IMG/VR virus record: IMGVR_UViG_3300014720_002486
Span: 1-33,449 of that record
DNA length: 33,449 nucleotides
DNA from: a virus
Reading direction: 5' to 3' (one strand)
Within the stretch, counting starts at the first letter, position 1, and each line of letters starts with the position of its first letter. Below, piece by piece: positions 5,535 through 30,565 of the stretch. The translations under genes and the position numbers were made by a program. The notes beneath the pieces are model-generated. The model did no database searches. It was not told where the DNA came from and worked only from the letters and a program-made list of their open reading frames with translations.

Positions 5535-5607
5535 TGGTCCATAACTCAGATGGTAGAGTGCCGAACTGTTAATTCGGATGTCCCAGGATCGAAACCTGGT
5601 GGACCAG
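5535..5607 (+). tRNA. tRNA-Asn (GTT)
   Basis: Cloverleaf with acceptor arm TGGTCCA/TGGACCA, D arm, anticodon stem CCGAA/TTCGG around loop CTGTTAA (anticodon 5568-5570) and a T arm with loop close to TTCGAAA. No 3' CCA is encoded. It begins 7 bases after the oxygenase stop. Confidence 0.96.
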
Positions 5608-5612
5608 CAAAA

Positions 5613-5686
5613 GGTCCTGTAGTTCAGTTGGTTAGAACGCTACCCTGTCACGGTAGAGGTCGACGGTTCAAGTCCGTTCAGGATCG
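5613..5686 (+). tRNA. tRNA-Asp (GTC)
   Basis: Acceptor GGTCCTG pairs with CAGGATC (one G-U). Anticodon stem CTACC/GGTAG surrounds loop CTGTCAC, anticodon at 5647-5649. T loop GTTCAAGTC is normal. No encoded CCA. Spacing of 5 bases from tRNA-Asn implies one transcript. Confidence 0.96.
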
Positions 5687-5689
5687 CAT

Positions 5690-5762
5690 GGCATCATCGT
5701 CTAGTGGCCTAGGACACCGCCCTTTCACGGCGGTAACACGGGTTCAAATCCCGTTGGTGTCA
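5690..5762 (+). tRNA. tRNA-Glu (TTC)
   Basis: Anticodon arm CCGCCCTTTCACGGCGG is nearly identical to bacterial tRNA-Glu; anticodon 5724-5726. Acceptor GGCATCA pairs with TGGTGTC using two G-U pairs. No encoded CCA. Confidence 0.96.
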
Positions 5763-5775
5763 CAATTAATGAAAG

Positions 5776-5784
5776 TGGTATAAT
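5776..5784 (+). promoter_or_regulatory. Extended -10 promoter TGGTATAAT
   Basis: Lies just after the tRNAs and physically overlaps the first possible ATG (5783). Seven bases separate it from ATG 5792, so that ATG is the likely leaderless start of the next gene. Confidence 0.6.
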
Positions 5785-5791
5785 GAATAAT

Positions 5792-6514
5792 ATGGATAAT
5801 AATGTTTTTATTTGTGGAATAGATATTGGCAACGAATGGGACTTTCCTTTAAGAACAAAACATTATTTAGAAAATTCCGACTGTATTGTTGTAGAGCATA
5901 TTGCAGAATTTAATAAAAGAATTAGGCCACAATTAAATTTACAAAAAAATATTGAACTTTTAGAACTTAATTTTAGTACAAGTCGTACAAAGCCAATTGT
6001 AGACAGGGTTATAGAATTATCAAAACAAAATAAAATAGTTTCAGTTATTGCTAATTCAGGAATGCCAACAATCTATGATCCAGGAACTGAAATTATTCAT
6101 GGACTACAAGAAGAAAAATTAAAATATACAGTTGTTCCAGGTCCATCTGCTATTATTAATGCTTTAGTTGCTTCTGGATTTAATTTAAATTCTTTTATGT
6201 TTGAAGGTGATTGCAATGGTGGAAAAGAAAGATTAGAAAAATTTAATAAGATTAAAGAAAATTTAAAAGAAAATAAAACAGTTGTATTTTTTGAGGTGGT
6301 ACACGAAGCAATTTACCATACAATACAAGATATGCATGACGCCTTTGGTCCAAAAAGTATGGTATCAATATGTATTGATTTAACAAAACCAGATGAAACA
6401 ATTTTTACTGGTAATTTAAAAGAAGCAACAGATTGGGCTAAAAAGTACTCAGAAGATAGAGATCCAAATAATCTTAATGTTAATATTACATATGTTTGTT
6501 ATATAGTTTTATGA
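5792..6514 (+). CDS. RsmI/tetrapyrrole-methylase-like protein (B)
   Basis: 240-residue SAM-dependent methyltransferase-like protein. CGIDIGNEWDFP at the N-terminus replaces GTPIGNxxDIT of RsmI. ANSGMPTIYDPGTEI (about 86-100) and VPGPSAIINAL (about 115-125) are well-conserved SAM-pocket motifs, so this copy looks catalytically competent. The RsmI C-terminal domain is short. ATG 5783 overlaps the -10 element TATAAT, whereas ATG 5792 sits seven bases after it; I therefore choose 5792. It directly follows the tRNA cluster and may be separately transcribed. Target (rRNA, tRNA or a small molecule) cannot be told from sequence. Confidence 0.82.
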   Translation: MDNNVFICGIDIGNEWDFPLRTKHYLENSDCIVVEHIAEFNKRIRPQLNLQKNIELLELNFSTSRTKPIVDRVIELSKQNKIVSVIANSGMPTIYDPGTEIIHGLQEEKLKYTVVPGPSAIINALVASGFNLNSFMFEGDCNGGKERLEKFNKIKENLKENKTVVFFEVVHEAIYHTIQDMHDAFGPKSMVSICIDLTKPDETIFTGNLKEATDWAKKYSEDRDPNNLNVNITYVCYIVL

Positions 6515-7193: not shown

Positions 7194-8106
7194 TAAATAT
7201 TTAGAATTTTTGTTATCAGAAGAAGATACAAATTTTTTTAAAGATAAATTTATATTAAATAAATTTTTTAAAAATTTTATTAATAACGCTGTATATCATG
7301 ATATAAAAAAAGAAGTATTTTACGAGAATTATGATAAAAACATTAATGCAGATATGATAGAATACAAAATAAATAGATATGGCTTTAGATGTGATAATTT
7401 TAATAAAAAAATAAAAACAGATATTTTATTTGCTGGCTGTTCAGAAACTTTTGGCCAAGGCGGTTCTTTAGAGCAGGCTTGGCCGTTTATGTTAAACAAA
7501 CATTTAAATATTAACAATTATTTTAATTTAGGATTGCCAGGTGCTGGATATCAACAAATAATTCATAATTGCTTACATTATATTGAATATTTTAATATTC
7601 CTAAAAATTTATTTATTGTATTTCCAAATATTGAAAGACATATTATTTATAATTATTTACCAAAAGAAAAAATAAAAAATGATGCATCTACAGATTTTAT
7701 TTTTGATTTAGACAAAAATCCTGGATATTATCCATGGCCACTTTATAGTACTTATGAACAAGATCACTCTCCATATCCGCCTGAATTTAACAATAATGTA
7801 TTTTCTTATAAGACAAAAGTTTTTGAGTTTTCTCAGTCATTAATAATGTTAGAACAAATTACCAAATTGTTAGGAATTAATTTTTGGTGGACTATGACTT
7901 TAGAAATTGATAGAAAAAATATAAATTCAATTAATTTGTTTAATTGTTTTGCTGACTATTCTTTTGATGAGTTAGCAAACTTTGTTACTAAATATAAACT
8001 AAAAAATAAAAATATTAAAAATATTGAGCGTAAACCAGATGCTCATTTTGGAATTGCTGTACACGAGTTTTGGAAGAGTTTATTTTTAGAAAAAGTATTG
8101 TTATGA
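7183..8106 (+). CDS. SGNH/GDSL-like protein (A)
   Basis: 307 residues. FAGCSETFGQGG (about 85-96) corresponds to block I of SGNH hydrolases, with Cys replacing the usual Asp of GDS and Ser kept as nucleophile. NLGLPGAGYQQI supplies block II-like Gly and FIVFPNIER a block III-like Asn. DAHFGIAVHEFW near the C-terminus supplies the D-x-x-H dyad. Known family members are esterases, lipases or O-acetyltransferases. GTG 7183, with AGGA upstream at 7170, is preferred over an upstream ATG buried in the oxygenase gene. Its stop overlaps the carbamoyltransferase start (ATGA). One of three paralogues. Confidence 0.68.
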   Translation: MKNNKYLEFLLSEEDTNFFKDKFILNKFFKNFINNAVYHDIKKEVFYENYDKNINADMIEYKINRYGFRCDNFNKKIKTDILFAGCSETFGQGGSLEQAWPFMLNKHLNINNYFNLGLPGAGYQQIIHNCLHYIEYFNIPKNLFIVFPNIERHIIYNYLPKEKIKNDASTDFIFDLDKNPGYYPWPLYSTYEQDHSPYPPEFNNNVFSYKTKVFEFSQSLIMLEQITKLLGINFWWTMTLEIDRKNINSINLFNCFADYSFDELANFVTKYKLKNKNIKNIERKPDAHFGIAVHEFWKSLFLEKVLL

Positions 8107-9539
8107 TTATATTAGGAATAAATGAAACATCTCATGATGCATCTATTTCATTAATAGAAAACAATAAAATTTTGTTTGCTGGTCATGCTGAAAGATATAG
8201 CAAAACAAAAAATGATTGGTATGTTAATAGCAATTTAATTTCTGATGCTTTGCTATACGGAAAGCCAGACTATATTGCTTATTACGAAAAACCTTTTTTA
8301 AAGGCTTCTAGACTAATGCTAAAGGGTGGGCTAGGAGAATGGAAGCCACGTTTTCATTTAAACAATATACCCAGAATATCATTTAAACATCATTATTCTC
8401 ATGCAGCAGCAGGGTATTATACAAGTAAATTTGATGATGCCGTCATAGTAGTATTAGATTCGATAGGAGAATACAATACCTCTACTATTTGGGTTGGAGA
8501 AGGTTCTTCTATTACACTAAAAGAAAAAATAAATTATCCCTTTAGTTTTGGATTATTTTATTCTGCATTTACTCAATTAATTGGATTAATGCCAAATCAA
8601 GAAGAATATATTATGATGGGAATGGCTGCTTATGGAGATTGGAAAAAATATTATCAAAAAGTTTTATCGTATTTTCCCTCAATACATTATCAGTCTTATA
8701 ATTTTCATAAAGGAATTTTTGATTGGGGTCAAGAAATATTAGAACAAGATAAGTTTGATATAGCAGCAGCAGTACAAAAGATTTATGAATTAAGATTATT
8801 TGATTTTATGGTTCATGCTAAAAAAATTACAGGAAAACATGAATTAGTATTTATGGGCGGATGTGCATTAAATTGTTCAGCCAATACAATGCTGTGGGAT
8901 ATATTTGATGATGTTTGGATTATGCCAAATCCTGGTGATGCTGGATCATCTTTGGGCGCAGCAGCAGCATTGTATGGCAAGCACTTAGATTGGCAAACCC
9001 CGTATCTTGGATTTGATTTGGGTGGTCAATATCCTGTAGATCAAATATTACAAGAATTACTTACTAATGAAATTGCAGCGGTAGCAACAGGAAAAGCAGA
9101 ATATGGTCCAAGAGCATTAGGAAATAGAAGCATTTTAGCAGACCCAAGAGATCCAAACATTAAAGATAAAGTTAATTTAATTAAAAAGCGTGAATTATTT
9201 AGACCCTTTGCCCCAGTAGTTATGGCAGAATATGCAGATAAATGGTTTGATATGGATTTTGATTCTCCATATATGCAGTATGCTGTAAAATGTTTGCAAC
9301 CAGAAAAAATACCATCAGTTGTCCATGCGGACGGAACATCAAGAGTTCAAACAGTAACTAGGGAGCAGCATCAAGGATTATATGATGTTTTAGAAAAATT
9401 TTATAAAGCAACTGGTGTTCCCATATTGCTCAATACAAGTTTAAATATAAAAGGGCAACCACTTCTTAATGATAAAAATGATATAATGGTTTGGGAAAAA
9501 ACATATAAAACTAAAATTATTACAGGAAAGGTTTTATAA
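8103..9539 (+). CDS. NodU/TobZ-type O-carbamoyltransferase
   Basis: 478 residues. The family moves a carbamoyl group from carbamoyl phosphate to a hydroxyl, through carbamoyl-adenylate, on sugars or antibiotics. MIILGINETSHDASISL at the start, the metal-site HHYSHAAAGYY (about 97-107), MGGCALNCSANT (about 252-263) and the YrdC-linked C-terminal motif AEYGPRALGNRSILADPR (about 334-351) are diagnostic. RPFAPVV follows. At 478 residues it is shorter than TobZ/NodU (about 560), so the C-terminal region may be trimmed. The start is set by the ATGA overlap with the SGNH-like gene. It is flanked on both sides by SGNH-like genes. Confidence 0.92.
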   Translation: MIILGINETSHDASISLIENNKILFAGHAERYSKTKNDWYVNSNLISDALLYGKPDYIAYYEKPFLKASRLMLKGGLGEWKPRFHLNNIPRISFKHHYSHAAAGYYTSKFDDAVIVVLDSIGEYNTSTIWVGEGSSITLKEKINYPFSFGLFYSAFTQLIGLMPNQEEYIMMGMAAYGDWKKYYQKVLSYFPSIHYQSYNFHKGIFDWGQEILEQDKFDIAAAVQKIYELRLFDFMVHAKKITGKHELVFMGGCALNCSANTMLWDIFDDVWIMPNPGDAGSSLGAAAALYGKHLDWQTPYLGFDLGGQYPVDQILQELLTNEIAAVATGKAEYGPRALGNRSILADPRDPNIKDKVNLIKKRELFRPFAPVVMAEYADKWFDMDFDSPYMQYAVKCLQPEKIPSVVHADGTSRVQTVTREQHQGLYDVLEKFYKATGVPILLNTSLNIKGQPLLNDKNDIMVWEKTYKTKIITGKVL

Positions 9540-15998: not shown

Positions 15999-16220
15999 AT
16001 GATAATAAATACTTTAGAAGAAGCAGAAAAAATTGTCAATAATTTTGATGATTTATATTGGGATGGGTGGAATATTGTTTCAATAACTAATAATGACAAC
16101 GCATATAGCAATAAATTTGGTGCTTATCTTAATGGAAGATGGGTTATAAAAAAAACATATTTTATAAATAGAAATGGCTGGAGTTTACCAAACATGTATG
16201 GAGTAGTAAAAAATGGATAA
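15999..16220 (+). CDS. Unknown protein, 73 residues
   Basis: Begins after a good AAGGAG site (15990-15995). Mixed alpha/beta, Trp- and Asn-rich (YWDGWNIVSIT, KFGAYLNGRWVIKKTYF). The repeated aromatic strands suggest a compact beta domain. Eight-base overlap with the following oxygenase gene. Confidence 0.65.
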   Translation: MIINTLEEAEKIVNNFDDLYWDGWNIVSITNNDNAYSNKFGAYLNGRWVIKKTYFINRNGWSLPNMYGVVKNG

Positions 16221-16953
16221 TTTAAATTGGTCACAATATCAAGAATACTTTAAACGATTAGGAAATAATAAAGATAATATTGTTCTTATCAATAATTTTA
16301 TTGAAGATAATGATTTAAAATTAATTAATCAATACCTAGATAGTCATAAAAATGATGATAGTTTTATGGGTGGTAAAGATATTAGAGAAGAACAAGTAAA
16401 GAAAGAAAATTTAGAAGTATACGGTCTTTTAATTAAATACGAAGAAAAAATTTTTAATGAGGCTAAAAAGTTATTTACAGATAAATACAGTATACCACTT
16501 AAGAGACAGGCTGTTAATAGCACACATTTTGTAAAATGGGTTCCTGGAATGAAGTCTGGATTACATTGTGACTGTGAAAAACCAGACGGAAGCCCAGCGC
16601 TGGCTGCCGATTTTTTCAAATACAATGTTTCAGTTTTAATGTATCCAAACGATCAGTATTTAGGCGGAGAAATTACATTTCCCGATTATGATTTAATTAT
16701 AAAACCAAAGGCTGGAGATATGATTTTATTTCCAGGTAACGGTGGATACAAGCATACTGTTGAAACAATTACAGATGGGGTAAGATATACAATGCCAAGT
16801 TGGTACACATATAATATTGAAACCACTGTAGAAAAAAAACATTGGACCTATAAAGACTCTGTGCAATTATGGCCAGAATCAGATATTTTAGATCCAGTAG
16901 GAGATAAAACTAGAGAAAGTTATTTACGTGAAAAATCAAAAATGGAAGAATGA
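16213..16953 (+). CDS. 2OG-Fe(II) oxygenase (C)
   Basis: 246-residue prolyl-hydroxylase-type enzyme. Iron ligands HCD in GLHCDCEKP (about 115-123), LGGEITFPDYD, distal His in GYKHTVE, and the 2OG Arg in DGVRYTMPSWY. All key residues are intact. An unusual C-terminal 45-residue tail (after YTYN) is charged. Overlaps the WhiB gene by 26 bases, so the two are probably translated together. Confidence 0.87.
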   Translation: MDNLNWSQYQEYFKRLGNNKDNIVLINNFIEDNDLKLINQYLDSHKNDDSFMGGKDIREEQVKKENLEVYGLLIKYEEKIFNEAKKLFTDKYSIPLKRQAVNSTHFVKWVPGMKSGLHCDCEKPDGSPALAADFFKYNVSVLMYPNDQYLGGEITFPDYDLIIKPKAGDMILFPGNGGYKHTVETITDGVRYTMPSWYTYNIETTVEKKHWTYKDSVQLWPESDILDPVGDKTRESYLREKSKMEE

Positions 16954-17218
16954 CGCAAACTGTTTAGATTATGACACTAACTTCTTTTTTGATAAATATG
17001 AAGAAGGTAGCGTAGACTTTAAAATTAACATAGATCAGTTTTGTCAAAAATGTCCTATTATAAAAACTTGTTTTGCAAATGGCGTTTCTGGTAAAGAATA
17101 TGGAGTTTGGGGGGGGATATATTTAGAGGCTGGAGAGCCTTCTAAAGAATTTAATTCTCATAAAACTAAAGAAGACTGGAGTAATATTTGGAAACAGTTA
17201 ACTTTAGAAATTAATTAA
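16928..17218 (+). CDS. WhiB-family [4Fe-4S] regulator
   Basis: 96 residues. Four Cys in WhiB order: Cys near 11 (DANCLDYD), then CQKCPIIKTC (C-x2-C-x5-C, about 38-47), followed by the GVWGG turn (about 56-60). WhiB proteins bind an oxygen- and NO-sensitive cluster and contact the primary sigma factor to change transcription; the family is confined to actinobacteria and their phages. The basic AT-hook-like C-terminus of typical WhiB proteins is reduced to scattered lysines. A phage copy could block or redirect host sigma activity, as mycobacteriophage WhiBTM4 does for WhiB2. Confidence 0.88.
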   Translation: MKNQKWKNDANCLDYDTNFFFDKYEEGSVDFKINIDQFCQKCPIIKTCFANGVSGKEYGVWGGIYLEAGEPSKEFNSHKTKEDWSNIWKQLTLEIN

Positions 17219-20202: not shown

Positions 20203-21117
20203 ATGATAAAAAAAATTATAACATTAATAAGTATTTCGTTATTTATTTCTACTACGCCAGCAATGGCAATAGAGGGTGGAGAGCCTGTTTATAATGATCC
20301 AAATGCTGTAGCAGTTGGGTTTGATAATCATGGTGGCTGTGGAGGGTTTATGTATACCTCAAGAATATTAATAACCGCTGCACATTGTACTTATGGGGTT
20401 AAACTTCCAAGTTTTGAAACATATAAATTATCTGATAATCAAGTTTTTGTTTGGACAGCAGATAAATTTAATAAAGATCCAATTTTATCAACAAAAATTT
20501 TTAGGCCAAATAATTTTGTTTGGCAAAGAACTGGAGAATATTGGGGCTATGGGAATGATTTTGCAGTTGTAGTTTTATCAAAACCAATTAAAATAAAAAA
20601 TAAAATTTCTTTAATTACTAAAGAAGAATTAGATTTATTTGTCAAAGATAAAACAAAAATAACATTAATTGGGTTTGGCAGGCAGTCTAAAGAAGATTTT
20701 CGAGGCTACAGAAATGCCAGCAAGGCAACTTTTGAACTTATAAGTCAACAAGAGGCAGATATTACAATTAATGAGTATAGGTCTAAATGGGGTCGTGGGG
20801 GCAAGTATGACTATCCAGCACACTTTAAAGTTCCAGTAGGAGCAGTAACCCCTTGTGATGGAGATTCTGGATCTCCTGTTATAATTGAAAATAATGAAAA
20901 AAGAATATTTGTGGGGCCTGTATCTTATATGCTAGGATCAACAAACTGTGGAGCAGATCCATTTTGGGGCAACAATGGTGCAGTACAATCTTTTTATCCC
21001 GCATATATGTTTGCTAATCTTGTTCAGGATGCTGAAAAATATGTTGAAGAAAAATATACAATAAAGGCTGCTAAAGTTATTACTAAATCAAAAGAAAAGT
21101 CAAAGAAAAACAAATGA
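20203..21117 (+). CDS. Secreted trypsin-like serine protease
   Basis: 304 residues. Signal peptide 1-22 (KK, hydrophobic core, cleavage after PAMA) releases a mature N-terminus IEGGEP, which resembles the IVGG end of active trypsin. The triad is complete: His in ITAAHCTY (about 60), Asp in GNDFAVVVL (about 117) and Ser in PCDGDSGSPV (about 225). Two Cys pairs look able to form disulfides. The C-terminal 30 residues are Lys-rich. Thus an exported S1 protease, perhaps acting on the cell envelope, on competing phages or during lysis. Origin from a host gene is likely. Confidence 0.92.
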   Translation: MIKKIITLISISLFISTTPAMAIEGGEPVYNDPNAVAVGFDNHGGCGGFMYTSRILITAAHCTYGVKLPSFETYKLSDNQVFVWTADKFNKDPILSTKIFRPNNFVWQRTGEYWGYGNDFAVVVLSKPIKIKNKISLITKEELDLFVKDKTKITLIGFGRQSKEDFRGYRNASKATFELISQQEADITINEYRSKWGRGGKYDYPAHFKVPVGAVTPCDGDSGSPVIIENNEKRIFVGPVSYMLGSTNCGADPFWGNNGAVQSFYPAYMFANLVQDAEKYVEEKYTIKAAKVITKSKEKSKKNK

Positions 21118-24054: not shown

Positions 24055-24063
24055 ATTATATCA
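24055..24063 (-). promoter_or_regulatory. Extended -10 for HSP20
   Basis: Minus-strand TGATATAAT whose TGA is the stop codon of the preceding methylase gene. Predicted leader of about 50 bases ends in AAAGGAG before ATG 23996. Confidence 0.6.
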
Positions 24064-24786
24064 TAAGCAGTTAGAGTTCAGTCTACTTTCGGGGACTACA
24101 AAAATAGACACTTTGCTATCATCAAAAATAGGATTATCTGTTAATATTTCTTTAACCTTAACAATATTATTAGAAATAATTAATTCTGTATCCATTGAAA
24201 TGTTAATTCCTATACATATTTCTACATTAATAGAAAAAATTAATATAATATCATTAATAATATCTATTAAAACATTATTTATGTTATTATTTCTAATAAT
24301 TAAAGACATAAAAGGCCTATCAAAATTATGTAATTTTTTAAATAATTTTAGTCTTTCATCTCTGTCTAACGGGATATATCTTTCAAAAACAAAGCCTTCA
24401 CAGCATAAGCCACTTAATATGGGGAGTGTAGAAATTATTGAAGGACCAGGAATAGCGGTATGTTTTATTTTATTTGTAATTGCATATCTTGCTATTTTAG
24501 TTCCTGGATCAGTAATTCCAGGCATACCCTCTCCAGCAATATAAACAATATTTTCATTTTTTTCAATGTGTTCTTTAATTTTTTGAAATATATTTTCTTC
24601 ATCTAAACATGGCCACTCTAAAATTGTTTTATTTTTAAATATTTCTTTATCTTTAAAATGACTTTTAACTTGTGTTATGCTTTCCATAATAATAAGATTG
24701 CTTTGTTTTATTGCATCTAAAGTTTTACTTGGAATATCCGAAACGTTTCCAATATTAATGCCTGCAAAAATAATTTTTGGTGTCAT
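24061..24786 (-). CDS. RsmI/tetrapyrrole-methylase-like protein (C)
   Basis: 241 residues. AGINIGNVSDIPSKT (about 7-21), AGEGMPGITDPGTKIARY (about 84-101) and IPGPSIISTLP (about 112-122) are the SAM-pocket motifs of the RsmI group. Followed by a divergent FERYIPLDRDERLKL where RsmI has GFLPxK. Active-site loops look intact. It starts 2 bases after the next paralogue, on the same strand, so it is the third gene of a leaderless operon (25708 to 24061). RNA target unknown. Confidence 0.85.
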   Translation of the reverse strand: MTPKIIFAGINIGNVSDIPSKTLDAIKQSNLIIMESITQVKSHFKDKEIFKNKTILEWPCLDEENIFQKIKEHIEKNENIVYIAGEGMPGITDPGTKIARYAITNKIKHTAIPGPSIISTLPILSGLCCEGFVFERYIPLDRDERLKLFKKLHNFDRPFMSLIIRNNNINNVLIDIINDIILIFSINVEICIGINISMDTELIISNNIVKVKEILTDNPIFDDSKVSIFVVPESRLNSNCL

Positions 24787-24788
24787 AA

Positions 24789-25523
24789 TTAATCAATCGA
24801 TGTCCAATATTCTATATTTTCTACCACTCTATTGGATTTAATACAAACTACAATTAAAACATCTTTATTAAATTCCATATATTTTTTCATAGGGTCTATA
24901 ACTCCAGAGGCATCTCCATATATTAAATATTCATCATTTCTGGTTAAATTAATTCCAATAAAAATTTGAGTGCCGTTTTTAAATATATCTTCAATTTCTT
25001 CTAAAGTTTCTATAATTCGTGTTTTTGATTCTAAAAATACTAAGGTTCTATCTGCAACAGAAGCACTTTTTAATAAAGATTTTTTTTGTTCTAAATCTTT
25101 TGGCAAATACCCATAATAATTAAAATTATTTGTATCAAATGTTGATAAAGACAATCCAGTAATTGCCACGTTAGGCCCAGGCAATACAGTAGTAAGTATT
25201 TGATTTTTAATAGCCTCTTCAACTATCTCTCTTCCTGGATCAGTTATTGTTGGCATTCCACAATCAGAAACTAAAAGTACTGTTTTGTTATTTTTTAAAT
25301 AATTAAAAGTTTTATTTTTTGTATCTTCAAATGTATCGTCATATTGTAATTGAATAATTTCTTCGGTATGTTTTAAATTAAGAGAATAGCAAAAATCAAT
25401 AAAAAATTGTTTATTTTCCGCTACAACCACATCACATGTTTTAATTGCATGAATCATTCTTAAAGATATGTCTTGTGGATTACCAATTGGCATACCACCT
25501 AAAATTAAACAGCCATTGCCCAT
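24789..25523 (-). CDS. RsmI/tetrapyrrole-methylase-like protein (D)
   Basis: 244 residues and the most RsmI-like of the four: LGGMPIGNPQDISLRMIHA (about 8-26), VSDCGMPTITDPGREI (about 84-99), LPGPNVAITGLSLS (about 113-126) and FYGYLPKD. Only the C-terminal small domain of RsmI is missing or shortened (RsmI is about 285 residues). RsmI plus RsmH modify C1402 in the ribosomal P site, so a phage copy could tune host translation. Overlaps the preceding 61-residue gene by 1 base. Confidence 0.88.
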   Translation of the reverse strand: MGNGCLILGGMPIGNPQDISLRMIHAIKTCDVVVAENKQFFIDFCYSLNLKHTEEIIQLQYDDTFEDTKNKTFNYLKNNKTVLLVSDCGMPTITDPGREIVEEAIKNQILTTVLPGPNVAITGLSLSTFDTNNFNYYGYLPKDLEQKKSLLKSASVADRTLVFLESKTRIIETLEEIEDIFKNGTQIFIGINLTRNDEYLIYGDASGVIDPMKKYMEFNKDVLIVVCIKSNRVVENIEYWTSID

Positions 25524-27081: not shown

Positions 27082-27122
27082 ATCATATCAGGTTTTGATT
27101 CGTATTGCAAGAATGGTATAAT
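27082..27122. promoter_or_regulatory. Divergent leaderless promoters
   Basis: Minus: TGATATGAT (27090-27082), six bases to ATG 27075. Plus: TGGTATAAT (27114-27122), six bases to ATG 27129. Confidence 0.72.
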
Positions 27123-27128
27123 AAAAAT

Positions 27129-27458
27129 ATGCAACTAACAGATCAGGCAAAAGATAAAGTAACAGAACTTATTAAAGATAGTCAAATAACTATGCCAGAT
27201 CATAAATTATTTTTAAGAGTAGCCGTTCAGCCTGGAGGATGTTCTGGCTTGAGATATCAAACCTACTTTGACTATGAGGAAAAAGACGGGGATCAAATAA
27301 TCTCATATCAATCCTTCAACCTACATATAGATAAAATGTCGTGGCCTTACCTACAAGGCTCCACAATGGATTTTGAAAATACTATCCAGAAACAAGGTTT
27401 TACAATAGACAACCCCATGGCTCAAGGCTCCTGTGCTTGCGGTGACAGTTTTCACTAA
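27129..27458 (+). CDS. A-type Fe-S carrier (IscA/ErpA/HesB family)
   Basis: 109 residues. PGGCSGLRYQ (Cys near 39) and GSCACGDSFH (C-x-C near 103-105) provide the three Cys ligands of the family. A TTG at 27105 is in frame, but the -10 element lies between it and ATG 27129, so translation must begin at 27129. A-type carriers pass Fe-S clusters to target proteins; here the phage WhiB is one plausible client, but that is inference. Confidence 0.93.
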   Translation: MQLTDQAKDKVTELIKDSQITMPDHKLFLRVAVQPGGCSGLRYQTYFDYEEKDGDQIISYQSFNLHIDKMSWPYLQGSTMDFENTIQKQGFTIDNPMAQGSCACGDSFH

Positions 27459-27975: not shown

Positions 27976-28122
27976 TTAATATTCTAGCAATATCCAAAAA
28001 GGACCTATATCAATAATCAAATTGTATTTGTCAATACTAAAACCAAGGCCAAACCTTTTATTAAATCCAATCCCTATCCAAACCTTATTACTCAAACGCC
28101 ATTCTTTGTATTTAGGTTCCAT
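27976..28122 (-). CDS. Small protein, 48 residues
   Basis: Aromatic, beta-rich sequence (NKVWIGIGFNKRFGLGFSID, then IIDIGPFWILLEY). AAAGGA lies before the ATG. Two AAGGTTTG repeats fall inside it. Coupled to neighbours on both sides. No family recognised. Confidence 0.58.
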   Translation of the reverse strand: MEPKYKEWRLSNKVWIGIGFNKRFGLGFSIDKYNLIIDIGPFWILLEY

Positions 28123-28123
28123 A

Positions 28124-28234
28124 TTAATCCTTTAAATTAATTGGGGTATTTTGATCAACACCAGAGGTCATAAAGAAAAAACAGGCCACATAGCCAATAA
28201 AGAAACTAAGTAACATAAGTAGTGCAGTCATCAT
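28124..28234 (-). CDS. Membrane microprotein, 36 residues
   Basis: MMTALLMLLSFFIGYVACFF is a membrane helix; the tail TSGVDQNTPINLKD is polar. Leaderless start six bases after TATAAT. First gene of a three-microprotein unit linked by TAATATG. Confidence 0.58.
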   Translation of the reverse strand: MMTALLMLLSFFIGYVACFFFMTSGVDQNTPINLKD

Positions 28235-28240
28235 TCTCCC

Positions 28241-28249
28241 ATTATAGCG
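28241..28249 (-). promoter_or_regulatory. Leaderless promoter CGCTATAAT
   Basis: Minus-strand TATAAT (28246-28241), six bases to ATG 28234. Confidence 0.62.
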
Positions 28250-28345
28250 GACAGTTTTAAGACTTGTCCAGGTCCTATCCTGATCTGTTCATTTAGAGAC
28301 GTTGTCAGGCTCTACATTTTCGTCTGGCTTTTGTTAAGCATTATA

Positions 28346-28374
28346 AGTATATCGAAGGCTAAAAGGTTTGTCAA
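28346..28374 (-). promoter_or_regulatory. Promoter P1: TTGACA-17-TATACT
   Basis: Perfect -35 (28374-28369) and good -10 (28351-28346). The -35 is formed by an AAGGTTTG octamer plus TCAA. It would produce a leader of about 100 bases before the microprotein operon, containing only a 9-codon ORF (28341-28312). Confidence 0.6.
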
Positions 28375-28381
28375 GTAAGAA

Positions 28382-28390
28382 TGGTAGAAT
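28382..28390 (+). promoter_or_regulatory. Leaderless promoter TGGTAGAAT
   Basis: Extended -10 with six bases to ATG 28397. Its -35 position overlaps the octamer at 28363, which also forms P1 on the other strand. Confidence 0.6.
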
Positions 28391-28396
28391 ATTACT

Positions 28397-28567
28397 ATGC
28401 TATCTTCAAACCAATCTATCGAGATTTTGCTATATAAATATGATATGGCAAATAGACAAAAAATAATAGATCGCCTAGCGCCTACGCTTTATCAATTGGC
28501 TGAGGGTCATTGCCATCTAACCAAAGAGTTGGTAGATGCTATTCTATCTGACATCAAAAACGCATAA
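28397..28567 (+). CDS. Small helical protein, 56 residues
   Basis: Almost wholly helical: SIEILLYKYDMANRQKIIDR, then LYQLAEGHCHLTKELVDAIL. Could be a dimeric helical regulator. Higher GC than the plus-strand genes to the left. Leaderless start. Confidence 0.62.
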   Translation: MLSSNQSIEILLYKYDMANRQKIIDRLAPTLYQLAEGHCHLTKELVDAILSDIKNA

Positions 28568-28594
28568 CGGCAATTTGGGCGGGTATATAGAAAA

Positions 28595-28603
28595 TGCTAT
28601 AAT
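28595..28603 (+). promoter_or_regulatory. Extended -10 TGCTATAAT
   Basis: Nine bases before ATG 28613, giving at most a 2-3 base leader. Confidence 0.6.
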
Positions 28604-28612
28604 ATTCCTAGT

Positions 28613-28807
28613 ATGTGCTCTATATGTAACAAACCCCTTATACCGATAGTGTATGGTTTTGTAGGCAAAAAATATCTGGATGCTCATAAGAAAGGTTTGA
28701 TATTTCTGGTTAGTAGAACATATCACCGAAAGTCTGATCCATTGTCATATTGCCCAGAATGCCATGAATGCTATGATGAGGATGTTCCCTTACCCCCGCT
28801 TTTTTAG
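28613..28807 (+). CDS. Small zinc-binding protein, 64 residues
   Basis: MCSICNKPLIPIVYGF then CPECHECYDEDVPLPP: CxxC near 2-5 and C-P-E-C near 44-47, consistent with a zinc ribbon. The middle is basic (KKYLDAHKKG, RTYHRKSD). Octamer copy at 28692 lies inside the gene. No family recognised, but the four-Cys spacing favours a real protein. Confidence 0.65.
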   Translation: MCSICNKPLIPIVYGFVGKKYLDAHKKGLIFLVSRTYHRKSDPLSYCPECHECYDEDVPLPPLF

Positions 28808-29141
28808 GCTCTCTAATAGCCTTATATGGCTTGATATGATGGTTTGAGGGTTTGTCATAAGCAAAAAATATATTACTGATAACATTTTTATCTGACTGTG
28901 GTGAGTAGTGGAGAATAGTGGTGGGTAATGGAGCGTTTTTATCGTAGGCATCGTAATGTCTTTAGCGCCCAAACCTCCAAACCTTCCTATCCCCAAACCT
29001 TCATAGCCCCTTATACCACACATAAAAAGGTTTGTCAAATCCTATAAAAATCCAGGAAAAATTTAAATAAATCGTAAAAAGGTTTGAAAAAGTTTTAAAA
29101 AGATTTAAAAACCAGATAAAAAGGTTTGTTATATATAGGGG
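28808..29141. other. 334-base gap rich in octamers
   Basis: No convincing gene. Contains five exact AAGGTTTG octamers, near-matches (ATGGTTTG, AGGGTTTG), a purine-rich stretch with repeated TAGTGG/TAATGG (about 28899-28932), and promoter P2. A minus-strand frame (29038-28790) is open, but its composition is unlike a protein. Confidence 0.5.
29010..29038 (-). promoter_or_regulatory. Promoter P2: TTGACA-17-TATAAG
   Basis: Minus strand -35 (29038-29033), 17-base spacer, -10 (29015-29010). As in P1, the -35 is part of an octamer copy and the spacer begins AACCTTTT. The following ATG (29004) opens only a 5-codon frame, so the product may be an RNA. Confidence 0.5.
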
Positions 29142-29336
29142 TTATTTTGTGTCGCTTTGTCGTCCCCGCCTGAAAAAACGGCGGGAGTTAGCAACATGTT
29201 TATAGGTTCTAGTAATAGGAGAGAAGGCAAATTGTACGGCATGAATTATTTTCTCTTCAACTTCCCGCTCATGTTGAGATACAGGTTGTCCATGAGATTG
29301 TCTTAAATAGTTTTTAGCAAAATGTCTTGGACTCAT
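29142..29336 (-). CDS. Small basic protein, 64 residues
   Basis: SPRHFAKNYLRQSHGQPVSQ, an acidic helix (HEREVEEKIIHAV), then an Arg-rich end (SRRFFRRGRQSDTK). Leaderless start with exact spacing supports a real gene. The 3' end contains a perfect CCCGCC/GGCGGG hairpin (29165-29170 with 29180-29185). Possible nucleic-acid-binding protein. Confidence 0.62.
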   Translation of the reverse strand: MSPRHFAKNYLRQSHGQPVSQHEREVEEKIIHAVQFAFSPITRTYKHVANSRRFFRRGRQSDTK

Positions 29337-29342
29337 ACTGGA

Positions 29343-29351
29343 ATTATATCA
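29343..29351 (-). promoter_or_regulatory. Leaderless promoter with two octamers upstream
   Basis: Minus-strand TGATATAAT (29351-29343), six bases to ATG 29336. Two octamers (29359-29375) cover the spacer and -35 region. Confidence 0.68.
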
Positions 29352-29390
29352 TGATATTAAGGTTTGAAAGGTTTGGAAAAAACGGCGGGA

Positions 29391-29522
29391 TCAACCAGAA
29401 TACATATACTTAAAGTGTATTCTACAAGTATCTATTATCAAACCTTCATAGTCAGATACATATAAAGCATCTCTATTACAGAAATAGCATTTAGTTTGCT
29501 TTGGGCATATAAGGTTTGACAT
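29391..29522 (-). CDS. Zinc-finger microprotein, 43 residues
   Basis: CPKQTKCYFCNRDALYVSD followed by IDTCRIHFKY. The CxxC plus CxxH pattern resembles the DUF7455-like protein at 11133. Leaderless start, six bases after TGATATAAT. One octamer covers codons 2-4 and another lies at codons 26-28. Confidence 0.65.
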   Translation of the reverse strand: MSNLICPKQTKCYFCNRDALYVSDYEGLIIDTCRIHFKYMYSG

Positions 29523-29528
29523 ATATCG

Positions 29529-29537
29529 ATTATATCA
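29529..29537 (-). promoter_or_regulatory. Leaderless promoter flanked by octamers
   Basis: Minus-strand TGATATAAT, six bases to ATG 29522. Octamers at 29544 and 29559 lie in the spacer and just beyond the -35 position. Confidence 0.68.
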
Positions 29538-29638
29538 GATAGAAAGGTTTGGGATATAAAGGTTTGATATCGTAATAAAGTTCAGGGATTTTTTGAACAA
29601 CCTTCTTAATGTCTAAAAATGTAAGGTTTGTCGGCCCG

Positions 29639-29860
29639 TTACTCTGACTCAGGCTCTTTGTCTAAAATCTCATCTAAAGAAGTAAAACCAGTATCTTCTA
29701 TTTCTAATGAGGCTAGAAATAAATGCCAAGTCTCATCAATATATACTTCCGCTTTTGGGGATATATCAACTACATCAGTAGAAATAAGATAAGCAAGAGG
29801 TAGTCCTATATCATTGTAGTCCATGAAATCTTCAAGCGCCTCATCTTCACGATAGTTCAT
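29639..29860 (-). CDS. Small acidic protein, 73 residues
   Basis: MNYREDEALEDFMDYND start, a central amphipathic segment (YIDETWHLFLASLEIED) and an acidic tail. ATG 29860 has AGGTGAG upstream; an in-frame TTG at 29923 would overlap the preceding gene by 38 bases and is less likely. No family recognised. Confidence 0.62.
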   Translation of the reverse strand: MNYREDEALEDFMDYNDIGLPLAYLISTDVVDISPKAEVYIDETWHLFLASLEIEDTGFTSLDEILDKEPESE

Positions 29861-29885
29861 CCAGAACTCACCTAGTATCTTACAT

Positions 29886-30092
29886 TTATTCTGTAGGTTG
29901 GTCAAGATTTTCAACTCCCTCAATTTGCTGTCGTTCTAGTATAGCACTATTAGAAACAACTTGAAACTTAGTGAACATATTTCTTGAAGCAATCCTAGCA
30001 ATATATTTTCCTATCATGTAGTCATCAAGTTCCCAATGGGATATTAAATCCAAAATACGCTTGGCTACTTTTTCGTTATCAGATTGTCGCAT
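29886..30092 (-). CDS. Small helical protein, 68 residues
   Basis: NEKVAKRILDLISHWELDDY then IGKYIARIASRNMF, predicted helices resembling a compact DNA-binding or adaptor fold, followed by an acidic tail. ATG 30104 overlaps the -10 element, so ATG 30092 is chosen. Cotranscribed with the gene downstream. Confidence 0.62.
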   Translation of the reverse strand: MRQSDNEKVAKRILDLISHWELDDYMIGKYIARIASRNMFTKFQVVSNSAILERQQIEGVENLDQPTE

Positions 30093-30102
30093 AGAACCTT
30101 TC

Positions 30103-30108
30103 ATTATA
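30103..30108 (-). promoter_or_regulatory. -10 TATAAT
   Basis: Minus strand TTGTATAAT, ten bases before ATG 30092. Overlaps the alternative ATG 30104. Confidence 0.5.
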
Positions 30109-30169: not shown

Positions 30170-30565
30170 CTAAGGGAGAGGATCCTTAGCACCATGGAAT
30201 GTAGAGGCATTGCTGCTCTCTACAAGATTAGTGTGATAAGAAATAAAACTATCAATTGAATGCGTTCCCGTTTCATCACTAACAGTATTTTTCTGCAGGT
30301 CAATTAATATAGGATGGTCCACAAAATCCATTGACATATTAGGATTACATGCATATAAACCAAACCCCGTTTCATCCATAACGGAATCCTTTAGTAGATG
30401 ACTGATAGCCATCCGTGTATAGTATTCAGTGTCACCTTTACGTACCGCTGCATGTTGCAGGGCCTGCGCTAGGTCCTTATACATTTCATACTCGCCCCAA
30501 TGGCTATATAGCGCTACCGCTAAATTTTCTTGTTGTTTAAATATAAATGTGCACCGTGCTCCCAT
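30170..30565 (-). CDS. Conserved-looking phage protein, 131 residues
   Basis: Begins MGARCTFIFKQQENLAVALY and contains SHWGEYEMYKDLAQAL, TEYYTRMAISHLL and ETGFGLYAC. I recall similar early proteins in actinophages (GARxTFxFxQ...SHWG) without known function. Overlaps the upstream 52-residue gene by 1 base (TAATG). GAGGAAG provides a ribosome site. Confidence 0.72.
   Translation of the reverse strand: MGARCTFIFKQQENLAVALYSHWGEYEMYKDLAQALQHAAVRKGDTEYYTRMAISHLLKDSVMDETGFGLYACNPNMSMDFVDHPILIDLQKNTVSDETGTHSIDSFISYHTNLVESSNASTFHGAKDPLP

Follow-up and report, generated by a model that had tools for sequence, protein, structure and literature searches.

The array and its surroundings

The DNA analysed here (the window) is the whole of a 33.4-kb IMG/VR record, probably a fragment of a genome; relatives of 104-122 kb are present in IMG/VR. 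It carries a gene for WhiB; in studies of freshwater phages, whiB has been taken to mark Actinobacteria (PMC6802176). The hosts of these phages are probably Actinobacteria, in the case of the window freshwater ones, and the DUF932 protein of the window is at most 52% identical to those of Streptomyces phages such as Navo, Persimmon and Paradiddles (Samistivirus). The array region described below has no match in named phages, and in phages and plasmids the corresponding module of a relative found no matches other than short ones of low score. A DnaB-like helicase, a primase and a PolIII alpha-like polymerase, named by eye from their sequences, are common to all seven relatives compared. No DnaA gene was found in ten related contigs (86-122 kb), and a search restricted to tyrosine integrases (Phage_integrase) was positive in 0/10 related contigs of the same size range but in 14/14 controls. 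The window also encodes an Fe-S cluster biosynthesis protein of the HesB/ErpA type (27105-27458; Pfam Fe-S_biosyn, E 1e-16), three tandem tRNAs (Asn, Asp and Glu; 5535-5763), a carbamoyltransferase (8070-9539), a 2OG-Fe(II) oxygenase (16213-16953), a trypsin-like protease (20203-21117) and four ORFs resembling, by reading, paralogous RsmI-type tetrapyrrole methylases (521-1399, 5783-6514, 24061-24786 and 24789-25523). The features of main concern are these:

16928-17218: WhiB gene
28050-29630, both strands: array of 16 AAGGTTTG octamers, by exact search
28363, 28692, 29027, 29079, 29121, 29359, 29368, 29511, 29544, 29559, 29623, plus strand: the 11 AAGGTTTG copies in this direction
28050, 28079, 28978, 28994, 29439, minus strand: the five AAGGTTTG copies in the other direction
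28346-28374, minus strand: second promoter, TTGACA-17-TATACT, with an octamer at 28363-28370
28839-28854, plus strand: variant sites ATGGTTTG and AGGGTTTG, adjoining the core
28871-28957, minus strand: origin-like core, read leftward, with a geometry fixed in 52 distinct related loci
28871-28879, minus strand: TCAGTAATA of the core, with an AT-rich stretch immediately past it
28907-28913, minus strand: CTCCACT in the pyrimidine tract of the core
28951-28957, minus strand: ATTACGA of the core
28970-28977, minus strand: variant site GAGGTTTG
29010-29038, minus strand: promoter TTGACA-17-TATAAG aimed into the core and kept in relatives; the octamer at 29027-29034 overlaps its -35 end
29639-29923, minus strand: gene for a 94-aa protein, adjoining the array and present in 381 related contigs
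29886-30104, minus strand: gene for a 72-aa protein with a predicted three-helix fold

An earlier note made from the sequence had reported 16 exact octamers here, 11 in one direction and five in the other, far more than chance would give, and exact search returned the same coordinates and strands. The whole window holds 19 copies of AAGGTTTG where 1.83 are expected (100 dinucleotide shuffles, sd 1.28, maximum 5), so that about 0.1 would be expected in the 1.6 kb of the array. The copies outside it number three (12788, 14346 and 23162) rather than the two that had been noticed, and each lies within a predicted gene; octamer density outside the array thus differs from that within it. The genome-wide motif count that the note had proposed leaves the cluster in the array region standing alone in relatives of ~100 kb. 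In four relatives (G001, G003, G011 and G014) the sites beyond the array region are almost all in coding sequence, and two relatives lacking an array (G012 and G016) have no excess of sites. Orientation is mixed in relatives too, as in the window.

Conservation, register and word changes

In related contigs fetched via DUF932 or the neighbouring Fe-S protein, clusters of as many as 14 octamers in 1.6 kb occupy the same location, which is kept even where the Fe-S proteins are just 59-72% identical. With the 94-aa neighbour as query, 381 relatives were found, of which 80 were fetched. All counts across these loci concern related sequences and are not independent events. In an alignment of 14 relatives, the identity of site columns was 0.886 vs 0.769 for other columns, a value matched by 20 of 2000 circular shifts; conservation of the octamers thus exceeds that of the surrounding DNA, where the earlier note had considered that it might fall short. 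Among 193 aligned sites only ~8 bp are conserved. It is close to certain that the array region is a real, conserved and functional cis-element.

The sites follow a register. In 89 dereplicated arrays, GGTTTG sites in the same direction are spaced by 8, 15-16, 23 or 31 bp, while almost none are 10-11 or 20-21 bp apart. Direct 8-bp tandems occur among the copies, opposed close pairs prefer GGTTTGNCAAACC and gaps between units are frequent, and the ~8-bp register persists across degenerate units. This suggests units packed side by side, ~8 bp each, and not helically phased.

The word itself varies, the dinucleotide leading GGTTTG being AA, AT, GT or GG according to lineage. The 117 distinct loci comprise 61 arrays of the AA type, 18 AT, nine mixed and one GG, together with 28 loci that have few or no sites; in further arrays the word has diverged, to ATGTTTG or TTTGGGG for example. 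Most AT-type loci fall in one supported clade of the DUF932 tree. When three loci of different types (L041, AT; L042, GG; L194, AT/GT) were aligned, homologous sites were found to keep GGTTTG while several leading dinucleotides had switched together, in DNA that is otherwise alignable around them and although the DUF932 proteins of L041 and L042 are 97% identical. A change of specificity in a binding protein would be expected to leave such parallel changes at homologous sites, and the concerted change of word between lineages suggests a coevolving DNA-binding protein.

The proteins encoded next to the array were considered as cognate binders after those of contigs G020 and G022 were found to diverge. 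Across 73 loci, at matched DUF932 identity, the identity of the 72-aa and 94-aa proteins is hardly lower between site types than within them, which supports neither as the binder. The 72-aa protein is modelled as three helices (AlphaFold2, mean pLDDT 86.7), and a fold search with this model gave no match in the PDB. Both genes diverge very fast (~45% identity where DUF932 is 85-95% identical), irrespective of site type, and in a lineage with ATGGTTTG sites (L174, L186, L200 and L206) the 72-aa family ends in QYRLF, resembling a sliding-clamp-binding motif that the window copy lacks. A family of 121-131 aa (window 30170-30565) does track the presence of arrays (41/47 vs 3/15), a correlation confounded by ancestry, and was set aside as well. 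RHH_1, the only RHH family searched, was found in 0/10 relatives, with positive controls.

The origin-like core and its promoters

Near the middle of the array, in noncoding DNA, lies a module whose geometry is fixed in 52 distinct loci: taking CAGTAAGAT as position 0, ATTACGA stands at about -79 and YTCCACT at about -56, -49, -39 and -29. Many loci have DnaA boxes (TGTGGATAA) at about +15, about +27 and further on, all in the same direction, amounting to 2-6 per core, 9-12 bp apart and beside an AT-rich stretch. In loci picked by a neighbouring protein and not by boxes, 57 exact DnaA boxes were counted in 53 x 150 bp after CAGTAA, or 7.2/kb vs 0.020/kb elsewhere (~350-fold). A scan of viral contigs for the core pattern with a DnaA box, the octamer being left out of the pattern, gave at least 120 matches, most of which, where the flank suffices, carry NNGGTTTG arrays; the link between core and array is therefore not an artefact of locus choice. 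The same pattern was matched once among 84,980 cellular species (one genome each), which indicates that the core is not a copy of an oriC of these species; the single match (L390:2391-2413) lies in a metagenome bin assigned to Chitinophagaceae, on a contig that is perhaps a misbinned phage.

On the strength of the relatives with DnaA boxes, the core is probably a replication origin, and the replisome-like genes of relatives, unaccompanied by a DnaA gene, speak for this as well. Two results count against this reading. Canonical DnaA boxes are absent from the window core, unlike many relatives, and the lineage of the window has lost them. GC skew, which the earlier note had put forward as a check, tracks the coding strand and does not mark an origin. 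In 28 of 117 loci the core is kept although NNGGTTTG sites are few or missing; this counts against our best reading of the array and shows that the core does not depend on the array. ATTACGA is kept even in relatives without NNGGTTTG arrays; as a second recurrent motif (also GACATTAAGAA then AAAAAATCCC), it is spread through the noncoding region of the array (28951-28957, 29570-29576 and 29604-29611), and in promoters it often occupies the -10/start or the -35.

The note's claim that octamers overlap at least five predicted promoters stands for two strong ones on the minus strand. Most of the other predictions carry no evidential weight, since a consensus scan returned 28 promoter-like sites where shuffled sequences give 19.6 +/- 5.2. 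The two strong promoters (28346-28374 and 29010-29038) share an identical TTGACAAACCTTTT operator geometry. Relatives usually have a TTGACA-(16-18)-TANNNT promoter aimed at the core, whose position (about -172, -115 or -85) varies with lineage. Of 83 such promoters in arrays of seven or more sites, 74 are overlapped by GGTTTG, vs 33.9 by random placement; these 83 come from related loci and hence are not 83 independent events. The overlap is achieved variously, to the left of the -35, to its right or in the spacer. The actinophage context (WhiB) and this overlap with a conserved promoter agree with the note's suggestion of regulator-type sites.

Possible roles of the array and comparison with known systems

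Judged from sequence comparison, the best single mechanism would be protein control of transcription towards the origin. The octamers would be binding sites for a cooperatively binding protein, probably phage-coded (a host-coded binder is a possible alternative), that packs along the DNA at ~8 bp per unit around a replication origin and covers a promoter aimed into it; occupancy would shut or time this promoter, hence transcription through the origin, and may also aid assembly of the origin complex. There are good grounds for expecting that the octamers bind a cooperative protein, and we lean, with less assurance, towards the combined statement that a cooperative, lineage-specific protein on the octamers covers the origin and governs its promoter. 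That the searches yielded neither an RHH_1 protein nor a small neighbour tracking site type counts against this statement.

The most serious rival, in our view rather unlikely, is that the array is only a cluster of transcriptional operators, through which a repressor or timing factor acts on a few early promoters between gene blocks; there would be no origin, and the DnaA boxes would act in transcriptional control or to titrate host DnaA. The location of the array between gene blocks, the overlap of sites with core-ward promoters and the operator geometry common to two window promoters all fit such a cluster, but a core of fixed geometry with 2-6 DnaA boxes in one direction by an AT-rich stretch exceeds what operators need, the sites cover 1.6 kb, well past the promoters, and other promoters of the genome have none. 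In the heptad arrays of pSM19035 (PMC9499535), too, short repeats that point either way adjoin one another over promoters; this likeness, with the 8-bp register, would suit a partition centromere in a phage-plasmid. This is very improbable: a ParA-type ATPase (AAA_31) was found in 0/10 relatives but in 14/14 control genomes, and no RHH_1 protein was found in 10 relatives. No more credible is a structured RNA or another RNA-level element encoded by the region, for which the promoter aimed into the core and a window strand folding slightly better than shuffles (z -1.67) could be invoked, against sites in both directions, no consensus pair among 18 relatives (RNAalifold) and no Rfam match. Chance or functionless repeat slippage might account for the direct 8-bp tandems; that it explains the array is scarcely conceivable given 19 copies vs 1.8 expected, conservation above background across more than 100 arrays, a register maintained through degenerate units and the overlap with promoters.

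Returning to control by a protein coating the origin, a bolder extension, which we regard as doubtful, is that the array is a specificity code embedded in the origin, each lineage having its own 8-bp word and a matching protein as its reader. All copies change together even in close relatives, so that in a co-infection one phage would either control the replication of the other or fail to. If true, the code would act like the immunity types of temperate phages, here in apparently lytic actinophages. More broadly, the core is a candidate origin common to a large group of uncultured phages, probably of Actinobacteria. Its compact signature (ATTACGA, CTCCACT repeats, CAGTAAGAT and DnaA boxes) lends itself to searches, and the natural variants of the array across lineages open to comparison the joint change in specificity of a protein and a dozen or more sites.

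Among known systems, the stoperators of cluster A phages were the resemblance first proposed. In L5 and TipsytheTRex these are asymmetric 13-mers, more than 20 of them throughout the genome and oriented with transcription, to which a repressor binds as a monomer; the phages are temperate (PMC6550527, PMC9283540). Such phages carry an integrase or parABS. The present sites, likewise in an actinophage, are like them in being many copies of a short site, some on a promoter -35, with a consensus that drifts between lineages. They are unlike them in being 8-mers on an 8-bp register, in both orientations, in one cluster at an origin-like core (one per genome in the longest relatives), and no integrase of the tyrosine type or L5-type repressor was found in relatives; the repressor of TipsytheTRex, a near-identical relative of L5 used in its place, had no match in 11 relatives, in a search without positive control. 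On genome distribution, orientation, site size and register, stoperators are thus rejected, and the TGTCAAG shared with the L5 site comes from the -35 hexamer TTGACA, read on the complementary strand together with flanking bases. The likeness is limited to the logic at the promoter.

Iterons of an origin, the other possibility raised in the earlier note, fare better as to place, with an origin-like module at the array centre, than as to form, the classical 17-22 bp, helically phased repeats being at odds with the 8-bp register; the genes next to the repeats, where an iteron initiator would lie, are two small ones that do not track site type. The lambda origin has four 19-bp iterons bound by O, and transcription passes through its region (PMC3985674). 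Our candidate is like it in having repeated sites at the origin and transcription directed through the region, and unlike it in its 8-bp units over 1.6 kb, in the host-type DnaA boxes of relatives and in having no known initiator. Closer in form are the met boxes of MetJ, short units of the 8-bp class packed side by side. The omega protein of pSM19035 binds 7-bp units packed in the same way (PMC9499535). As in the omega and MetJ arrays, units of 7-8 bp, pointing either way, adjoin one another over promoters, but here gaps are common, an origin-like core is enclosed, and neither RHH_1 nor ParA was found in relatives. Bacterial oriC has DnaA boxes beside an AT-rich stretch. The window lineage departs from it in being without canonical boxes, whereas in many relatives the core is like oriC, with TGTGGATAA boxes that all point the same way, at intervals of 9-12 bp, near an AT-rich stretch.
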